Source of the DNA: Planctomycetaceae bacterium
GTDB lineage: Bacteria > Planctomycetota > Planctomycetia > Planctomycetales > Planctomycetaceae
Assembly (NCBI GenBank): GCA_024742875.1
Contig: JANSXP010000032.1
Span: 1 to 64,000, forward strand
Reading direction: 5' to 3'
Length of the DNA: 64,000 nucleotides
The position numbers and the translations under genes are program-made. Position 1 is the first letter of the stretch. Every line of letters starts with the position of its first letter. Under the pieces are notes generated by a model. That model made no database searches. It was not told where the DNA came from and worked only from the letters and a program-made list of their open reading frames with translations. This document shows, piece by piece, positions 10,677 through 12,908 of the stretch.

Positions 10677-12518
10677 ATGGCACGCGCCGCGCGACGATTT
10701 TCCGTGCGACGTCAGTTGGGATCAGGATTCTTGAGCAGCGGATCACACTACACAGTACTGGCAAGGCGGTTTCGGCCTCAGGCGTTTGACGATGTCGTGG
10801 GGCAGGAACACGTCGCGCAAGCGCTGCGCAATGCGATCCGCGCAAACCGTGTGGCCCATGCGTATCTGTTCACTGGTGCCCGTGGGGTCGGCAAGACGTC
10901 CACCGCCCGAATTCTGGCCAAGGCGCTGAACTGTCCTCATGTGAAAGACGGTGTCCCCTGCAATCAGTGCGATGTTTGTGAGGCAGTTTCCGCCGGCGAC
11001 GACGTCGACGTGCTGGAAATCGACGGCGCCTCCAATCGTGGTATCGAAGACATTCGGTCGCTGCGAGCGAATGTACGCTCGATGTCGATGGGAGGCCGGT
11101 TCAAGCTCTACATTATCGACGAAGTTCACATGCTGACGCGGGAGGCGTTTAATGCGCTTCTGAAGACGCTGGAAGAACCGCCCGCGATGGTCAAGTTTGT
11201 GTTCTGCACGACGGAGCCCAACAAGGTACCGGACACCATTCTGTCACGCTGTCAGCGGTTTGATTTCAGCGCTATTGGTGAAGAGTCGATCGGTCAGCGT
11301 CTGCGGGAAATTGCAGCTGCGGAGGGCTTTGAGGTTGAGGACGATGCCATTGAACTGGTGGCGCGTCGAGCGCGGGGATCGATGCGGGACAGCCAGTCGC
11401 TGTTTGACCAGCTGCTGGCGTTCAGCGACGGCGTGGTGCGTGCCGCTGACGTGCACCGCATGCTCGGAACGGCCAGCGACGAGTTACTCTGCTCGCTGTT
11501 TGATGCCGTCTCGCAGCATCGCCCGGGTGAGGTGCTGAATCTGCTGGAGTCGGCCCTCAACTCTGGTGTTCAGGCGGGCGAAATGCTCGATCAGTGCATC
11601 AGCTATGTTCGCGATATGATGGTCACTCTCAGCGGCGGTGCGACTGTGGCACTCGCCAGCGTGGCGGGCAGCCTGAGGCCTGCGGTTACGGAGCAGGCCA
11701 CCAGGCTGACATTGCCCAACATCATGGCTGGTTTTCAGATTCTGTCAGAAGCGAAAGGCAGAATGCTGCGCAGCACATTTGCTCGTGTGCTCCTGGAAAT
11801 GGCTCTCGTGCAGGTGGCACTGCTGGAGGATCTGAGTGCCATCAGCGGGCTGTTGTCCGGAAATCTGCCAGCCCTGCCGGCCGGAGCGGCTGCACCGGCC
11901 GTGACAGACACCGCTTCCGCTGGGGATGACGAAAAAAAAAATGACATAGAACCGGCCACTGAGGAGCCCAATCCCCCTGAAGACGTCACGCCAGCTGGCC
12001 CGGCATTCGAGTTTTCCCCCGAGAATCAGGCGCGCCTACTGGCGGAAGTAATTGATAAGGCAGCCTTTACGTTGTCCACGGCGTTGAAGTCCGTGAGTGC
12101 AATAGCAATTTCCGGGCCAAACGGTCTAGAAATACAAGTCGGTGACTCCTATGATTTCCAGCGACGGGTGATTGAGCAGCATGAAAACCGCTCAGCCATT
12201 CAGTCCATTGTGGAACGTCTGACTGGGATTGATCCGGTGATCACAGTGAAAACTGTGGTGTCACCGGCAGGTGAGAAGCCTGTGACAGGTCCGGCAACGG
12301 CTCCAGCGGAAGCCTCACCGCGTCCGGTGGCCGCTGAGCGGCGGCAGGATCCTCCGCGGGTCAAAGGTCCGGCGAGACTGCGGGAACGAAAAGACGTCGA
12401 TCCGGAGCAGGACGCCTTCGTTCAGCAGGTGGTTGCCACGTTTGAGGCGCGTGTTGTGCGAGTGACGGATGCCCCCGTTCGACGGGGGACAGTCCCTGAG
12501 AATTCGGAAGAAAGTTGA
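10677..12518 (+). CDS. dnaX: DNA polymerase III subunits gamma/tau
   Basis: Clamp-loader ATPase, up to 613 residues. Conserved sequence begins at YTVLARRFRPQ (residue 25), so the Arg-rich first residues may not be translated. An in-frame TTG at 10731 is an alternative start; neither has a clear ribosome site. Seen: Walker A GARGVGKTSTA, a zinc module (four Cys in the CPHVKDGVPCNQCDVC stretch), the Walker B-like IDEVHML, and the TTEPNKVPDTILSRCQRF sensor region. After residue 418 the reading frame crosses a run of ten A residues (see separate entry). The remaining ~190 residues are the tau-specific tail. It heads a dnaX-ybaB-recR cluster, a widely conserved arrangement, with only 36 bases to ybaB. 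Confidence 0.95.
   Translation: MARAARRFSVRRQLGSGFLSSGSHYTVLARRFRPQAFDDVVGQEHVAQALRNAIRANRVAHAYLFTGARGVGKTSTARILAKALNCPHVKDGVPCNQCDVCEAVSAGDDVDVLEIDGASNRGIEDIRSLRANVRSMSMGGRFKLYIIDEVHMLTREAFNALLKTLEEPPAMVKFVFCTTEPNKVPDTILSRCQRFDFSAIGEESIGQRLREIAAAEGFEVEDDAIELVARRARGSMRDSQSLFDQLLAFSDGVVRAADVHRMLGTASDELLCSLFDAVSQHRPGEVLNLLESALNSGVQAGEMLDQCISYVRDMMVTLSGGATVALASVAGSLRPAVTEQATRLTLPNIMAGFQILSEAKGRMLRSTFARVLLEMALVQVALLEDLSAISGLLSGNLPALPAGAAAPAVTDTASAGDDEKKNDIEPATEEPNPPEDVTPAGPAFEFSPENQARLLAEVIDKAAFTLSTALKSVSAIAISGPNGLEIQVGDSYDFQRRVIEQHENRSAIQSIVERLTGIDPVITVKTVVSPAGEKPVTGPATAPAEASPRPVAAERRQDPPRVKGPARLRERKDVDPEQDAFVQQVVATFEARVVRVTDAPVRRGTVPENSEES
11931..11951 (+). other. A10 slippery site inside dnaX, probable tau/gamma switch
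   Basis: Bases 11932-11941 are ten consecutive A, read in frame as GAA AAA AAA AAT. One extra A, or a -1 ribosomal shift, gives GAA AAA AAA AAA TGA. One fewer A gives AAA ATG ACA TAG. Either event therefore ends the protein at about residue 422-423 of 613, right after the conserved ATPase and collar region. A GGGGA motif sits about six bases upstream. The arrangement closely resembles the Thermus thermophilus dnaX slippage site, which makes gamma by transcriptional slippage on nine A. Use of this site is inferred, not shown. Confidence 0.7.
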
Positions 12519-12554: not shown

Positions 12555-12908
12555 ATGTTTGATCAGCTGAAAAATCTGGGTTCGATGATGCAGCAGGCGA
12601 AGCAGATGCAAAGCCGCATGGCTGAAGTGAAGGAAAAAGTGGCCGAGATGCGGGTGGAAGGCATCGCGGGCGGAGAAATGGTCCGCGTGGAAGCCACTGG
12701 AGATCTGCGGATTATTGGCGTCCACATTGATCCGTCTCTACTCGAAACCGGTGACCGCGAAATGCTGGAGGAGCTGGTTTCTTCCGCCACCAACCAGGCG
12801 CTGCAAAAGGCCAAAGAAGCGGCGGCGAACGCCATGCAGGAAGTGGCTGGTGGTATGGACATTCCCGGGCTGAGCGACGCGATGTCGAAGTTTGGACTCG
12901 GTGGATAG
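12555..12908 (+). CDS. ybaB: YbaB/EbfC family nucleoid-associated protein
   Basis: 117 residues, the usual size. The family pattern is clear: MFDQLKNLGSMMQQAKQMQ followed by a helical stretch, then VRVEATGDLRIIGVHIDPSLL. The C-terminal helix is rich in Ala/Lys (NQALQKAKEAAANAMQEV). These small dimeric proteins bind DNA and are almost always encoded between dnaX and recR, as here. GAGG eight bases before the ATG is a good ribosome site. It is probably co-transcribed with dnaX (36-base gap) and recR (100-base gap). Confidence 0.93.
   Translation: MFDQLKNLGSMMQQAKQMQSRMAEVKEKVAEMRVEGIAGGEMVRVEATGDLRIIGVHIDPSLLETGDREMLEELVSSATNQALQKAKEAAANAMQEVAGGMDIPGLSDAMSKFGLGG

Follow-up and report, generated by a model that had tools for sequence, protein, structure and literature searches.

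In Escherichia coli, dnaX is recoded by a −1 ribosomal frameshift at A_AAA_AAG, assisted by a Shine-Dalgarno sequence and a stem-loop; tau contacts the polymerase and the helicase through its tail. To our knowledge, Thermus is the one organism for which transcriptional slippage of dnaX is usually cited. In Thermus thermophilus, slippage on a run of nine A's gives gamma (Larsen et al. 2000, as described in PMC1088944, PMC5009743, PMC4320859), and it has been suggested that two lysine tRNAs may explain why Thermus uses slippage over ribosomal shifting (PMC5009743). Two-ORF dnaX genes with 7-10 A's have been reported from Chlorobi and others (Chlorobium, Chloroherpeton) using GeneTack (PMC3711429), and in Caulobacter crescentus gamma is produced from DnaX by proteolysis (PMC5009743).

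We analyzed a stretch of 64,000 nucleotides from a Planctomycetaceae bacterium (hereafter the window), in which one gene was identified as dnaX by its profile matches to TIGR02397 and to PF13177, PF22608, and PF12169 (Table 1). We take the gene order to be dnaX-ybaB-recR, the ybaB/ebfC-like name being given by recognition. Positions 11930-11949 read CG AAAAAAAAAA TGACATAG, with A's occupying 11932-11941, the A10 to which the first-pass annotation had drawn attention. The frame of the ORF passes through the run as GAC GAA AAA AAA AAT GAC ATA GAA. With one A added it becomes GAA AAA AAA AAA TGA, with a stop immediately after the run, and with one A removed it becomes GAA AAA AAA ATG ACA TAG, with a stop two codons further than in the TGA case, so both shifted readings end as had been proposed. 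Counted from the ATG at 10677, the predicted short products are 422 amino acids (45.4 kDa, ending in DDEKKK) with one A added and 423 amino acids (45.5 kDa, ending in DDEKKMT) with one A lost, in agreement with the earlier estimate of residue 422-423; full-length DnaX is 613 amino acids and 66.0 kDa on the same count. Because same-genus relatives align only from residue 19, translation probably begins at the TTG at 10731 instead of this ATG, which would give short products of 404 and 405 amino acids (43.4-43.5 kDa) and a full-length protein of 595. The first-pass annotation had also placed the end of the short product at the border between the clamp-loader part and the tau tail. The clamp-loader domains stop about 35 residues upstream of the run, at residue 380-387 (TIGR02397 to 380, PF12169 to 387).

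Table 1. Features of the dnaX locus, in window coordinates
Feature	Position	Strand	Basis or remark
dnaX, tau (full length) and gamma-like (short) products	10677..12518	+	ORF; TIGR02397 dnaX_nterm 431 bits, PF12169
TTG, likelier start codon (ORF residue 19)	10731..10733	+	Inferred from same-genus alignment
Clamp-loader part, domains I-III, common to both products	10731..11837	+	PF13177, PF22608, PF12169 to residue 387
Hypervariable linker preceding the run	11838..11931	+	Same-genus alignment
GGGGA	11922..11926	+	Not conserved, probably no role
A10, candidate slippage tract	11932..11941	+	Sequence; A9/A10 in 55/70 class members
TGA, stop with one A added (or −1 ribosomal shift)	11942..11944	+	Sequence
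TAG, stop with one A lost (or two added)	11947..11949	+	Sequence
Tau-only tail; needs templated A number (or ±3)	11942..12515	+	Protein conserved in relatives
Downstream gene, ybaB/ebfC-like	12555..12908	+	ORF; named by recognition

This organization most closely resembles that of Thermus thermophilus. In both, tau is encoded in frame in one ORF, at least nine A's follow the clamp-loader part, stops that end a gamma-like product lie close by whichever way the frame shifts, and the genome has two tRNA-Lys (here CTT and TTT). The window differs in that it comes from an unrelated phylum, carries A10 in a run conserved class-wide with A9 and A10 alternating, and has slippage as a prediction. The window dnaX shows all of the sequence features of Thermus-type slippage that were tested. 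The two-ORF genes found by GeneTack share the A-run at the same junction and the recoding between gamma and tau, and theirs is the layout of the inverted f59 and f11 genes described below (L177, L294, L299, L147, and others). In contrast, the window gene is a single ORF holding tau in the template frame, not one with gamma in the template frame and tau reached only by a shift, and is thus of a type that two-ORF searches miss. Escherichia coli makes the same products at the same place in the gene; however, the window has no AAG heptamer and no conserved Shine-Dalgarno sequence or stem-loop, and stops appear to be selected in both frames. Caulobacter crescentus reaches the same outcome, a short DnaX, at another level of control.

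To see how far the run is conserved, we collected dnaX from 58 related genomes, from the rest of the phylum, and from named contigs, taking one genome per species, many of them MAGs; named relatives in the window's class include Gemmata, Schlesneria, and Aporhodopirellula. Within a linker defined as residues 394 to 480, A9 or A10 was present in 55 of 70 class dnaX genes, with families f1-f6 all represented, and in 47 of 60 when named contigs, some of which possibly repeat species, were excluded. Run lengths in the linker were bimodal, with runs of 4-6 (and one A7), no A8, and then 39 runs of A9 and 18 of A10, and none of the 70 genes had a run of at least seven A's upstream of the linker. The seven dnaX genes that could be read in the genus, counting that of the window, all carry A10, and in their alignment the run is an island within an otherwise hardly alignable linker. 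The residues that it encodes vary (KKN, KKT, KKS, KKK), as does its phase (0, 1, 2), which indicates that the nucleotides and not a peptide are under conservation. Shuffling codons within the linker gave 0.28 genes with at least A9, and synonymous resampling gave 4.67 (maximum 11). By these comparisons, the A-run is conserved across the class and is not due to chance, and the early remark that a random A10 would be unlikely here holds for the class as a whole. In the window, the dnaX run is the sole tract of at least A9 (two overlapping matches versus 0.2 expected; 4 of 100 shuffled windows had as many A9 matches), and the 8.18 Mb genome, both strands counted, has seven tracts of at least A10, this one among them. 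At other loci returned by searches for A9 and A10, most tracts lay close to the edge of an ORF, within a short frame, or on the strand opposite an open frame. The tract in dnaX therefore stands out, yet it is not the only internal coding one, as L265 has an internal A9.

The run was absent from the tested linker in 15 of the 70 class genes, including L030, which has A9 further on; class members without an A9/A10 run include L031, L036, L038, L042, L049, L050, L052, L056, L060, L062, L063, and L064. On the tree, the genes without the run (13 of 60 class genes) sit at scattered tips, with 13 changes among 60 rows, suggesting that gamma made through an A-run is dispensable. We scanned the run-less members for homopolymers and A/T heptamers as substitute signals and found nothing convincing, though L042 has an A7 with a −1 stop five codons on; proteolysis as in Caulobacter could operate in these relatives. 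A9 or A10 also occurs far downstream in some dnaX genes (L198 at q548, L098 at q514, L121 at q546, L030 at q546), mostly with close stops in both shifted frames. In L198, L098, and L121 such runs would trim only the end of tau, and that of L030 appears to sit in a longer linker. Separately, dnaX is split between contigs in G029 (C366/C388) and G024 (C830/C60), with N-terminal fragments that stop near residue 152, next to a YIIDEVHM motif, where an insertion or intein possibly broke the assembly.

The stops behind the run were closer than expected in both shifted frames. Across class genes, the first stop reached with one A more lay a median of 2 codons past the run, compared with 14 when the downstream codons were shuffled, and the first stop with one A less lay at a median of 4 codons, compared with 21; none of 200 shuffled replicates reached either median. 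This argues strongly that close stops are selected in both shifted frames. Such selection fits slippage of variable size, as a −1 ribosomal shift requires a stop in only one frame. The alignment of relatives that the first-pass annotation had put forward as a check thus returned both a conserved run and stops enriched in the two alternate frames, which supports the Thermus-like slippery run that it had proposed for a gamma-like form.

Further evidence comes from f59, a more distant family in an order of the same phylum, in which each of the 19 genomes read has A9, A10, or (once) A12 at the dnaX junction. Ten of these genes (L349, L350, L353, L355, L356, L357, L360, L361, L362, L364) have tau in frame, and a changed A number leads to gamma, like the window. 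The other nine (L348, L351, L352, L354, L358, L359, L363, L365, L366) are inverted: the template frame stops 4-12 codons past the start of the run, the shifted frame is open for about 150-280 codons, and tau needs a shift. A search of the order yielded L294 and L299 as further inverted members; L177 and L365 are one and the same gene. Homology links the shifted tails of L177, L294, and L299 to one another and to tau tails that relatives encode in frame (composition-corrected E values as low as 1e-8 in the latter comparison). The inverted genes are unable to make tau without a shift, and we regard them as strong indirect support for slippage at runs of this kind. In L354 (A12), the long frame is reached only by losing one A or gaining two, so a −1 ribosomal shift cannot give its long product, although this is a MAG whose homopolymer may be miscounted. 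Outside f59, L147 (= L306; G061, family f11, GC 0.69) has A10 followed by a stop in the template frame, with the +1 A frame open for 173 codons. Its tail showed no homology to other tau tails, bar a weak match to one f15 tail, so its inverted layout is read from the open frame.

We therefore consider it very probable that the A10 tract serves programmed transcriptional slippage and so yields a gamma-like DnaX. RNA polymerase copying the T10 template would add or drop A's in part of the dnaX transcripts. Messages with 10 (or 10 ± 3n) A's would be read through to tau, and the remainder would meet a stop 0-2 codons past the run, giving a clamp-loader subunit that keeps domains I-III and is without the tail. 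The patterns that favor slippage are the conservation and exclusive position of the tract, the enrichment of stops in two frames, the absence of ribosomal stimulators, and the relatives whose tau depends on a shift at such a run; slippage in vivo, the ratio of tau to gamma, and the role of gamma are inferred.

The main competing reading is that the short form arises not by RNA polymerase but by E. coli-like −1 ribosomal frameshifting on A_AAA_AAA inside the run. We judge it improbable, though every A9 or A10 run contains this heptamer, the stop reached with one A added, which is also the stop of a −1 shift, is the closer of the two on average (median 2 versus 4 codons), and this route, with A7 runs, seems to be the one taken by f9, a family of the same phylum. 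The usual stimulators, however, are missing. At the window site, there is no A_AAA_AAG in frame (GAA AAA AAA AAT instead) and the downstream sequence forms no stem-loop (z = +1.9), and across the 55 class sites neither Shine-Dalgarno sequences (at least 5 nt in 2% versus 7% of controls) nor 3′ structures (mean z 0.15; all hairpin z-scores from mononucleotide shuffles) were enriched. Hairpins upstream or downstream of the A-runs, considered as stimulators, were rejected as reflecting composition only. The GGGGA that precedes the window run by five bases had been suggested as a ribosomal component, but it is private to the window genome, being absent even from same-genus relatives, and that suggestion is not supported. 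A −1 shift also leaves unexplained why stops in the other frame are equally strongly selected. It further sits poorly with runs of 9-10 and not 7 (at f9 sites the run is A7 and only the −1 frame holds the tail), with the frame of L354, subject to the same caution about its homopolymer, and with the two tRNA-Lys of the window genome. Ribosomal shifting through A_AAA_AAA may nonetheless contribute a minor share in A9/A10 runs.

Three other explanations seem to us barely credible. That the run is incidental, a product of a lysine-rich linker or of chance from which no short form is made, might be argued from the poor constraint on the linker and from the relatives without a run, but 0.3-4.7 genes in the null models against 55 seen, the bimodal lengths, and the stops in both frames statistically refute chance and lysine codon use for the class. 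Nor is the tract at all likely to be a phase-variation site acting as a DNA-level contingency. Long homopolymers do mutate, and A9, A10, and in f59 A12 all occur; yet length stays at 9-10 across families, every class member preserves the reading frame, and losing tau is expected to be lethal. A homopolymer error of sequencing or assembly is conceivable in that many of the genomes are MAGs, but the run is present in single-contig genomes (G004, G008, G011, G020, G025) and in named contigs of Gemmata sp. IIL30 and Aporhodopirellula aestuarii, and is always in frame in the class. This refutes such an error for the class, while single inverted cases such as L354 could be affected.

Other dnaX genes of the phylum carry candidate −1 signals of different kinds. 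In f9, the template frame of 17 of 19 readable genes ends right after A_AAA_AAA (A7, in constant phase) plus 0-1 codon and a stop; the remaining two have G_GGA_AAA (L300, L329), and a long −1 frame stays open in every gene except one that runs off its contig. The motif G_GGA_AAA_GC(C/A)_TGA is common to L153, L162, and L165 (f9) and L303 (f72), each preceded at about 8-10 bases by GGAG or GGAGG and followed by a hairpin. L329-L347 and L300 (f9) and L303 (f72) are thus candidates for E. coli-like −1 frameshifting in an inverted layout, with tau made by the shift. In f15 dnaX (L310-L328; also L161, L163, L166, L168, L170, L174, L179), the template frame ends at about residue 410. All 18 readable f15 genes have C_CCN 0-1 codon before the stop (three codons in one gene), as CCT in nine, CCC in seven, and CCG in two, and most have a strong hairpin after it (GGGCCGG...CCGGCCC). 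The −1 frame carries a tau-like tail (HPLVQ..KRF.ADI..REP) conserved among genera, and alignment of the hairpin gave a short consensus stem only, with weak support from covariation. We propose f15 as a candidate −1 frameshift cassette on proline codons; C_CCU and C_CCC are among the tetramers that shift in E. coli given a stimulator (PMC4066793).

Outside the phylum, L211 and L219 (labelled Bacteroidetes) and L260 (labelled Omnitrophota) carry A9 or A10 at the corresponding point of dnaX and meet a stop soon after it in either shifted frame. These are probable cases of slippage; the same signal occurs in 4 of 67 named dnaX rows outside the phylum. A literature search covering non-subscription papers found no description of dnaX slippage in planctomycetes, so a slippage-type dnaX is likely new for this group, as the first-pass annotation had suspected. 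The new fact would be that the Thermus-type design of dnaX is conserved across a class.

Taken as a whole, the phylum may well keep dnaX dependent on recoding, with the template frame itself of little consequence, a view toward which we lean: lineages with A9-A12 would alternate as to which of tau and gamma is in frame, with RNA polymerase supplying the other product, and others would use ribosomal −1 cassettes (A_AAA_AAA or G_GGA_AAA; C_CCN with a hairpin). If this is true, a single phylum answers one demand for two products in at least three ways. Annotation pipelines will tend to call the inverted dnaX genes truncated or frameshifted, and the switch of layout within one family would offer natural pairs for studying the function of gamma and the degree of slippage required. 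Selection on the signal extends through a class of environmentally important bacteria, and together with the scattered members in other phyla this speaks for a short DnaX being of use well outside E. coli.
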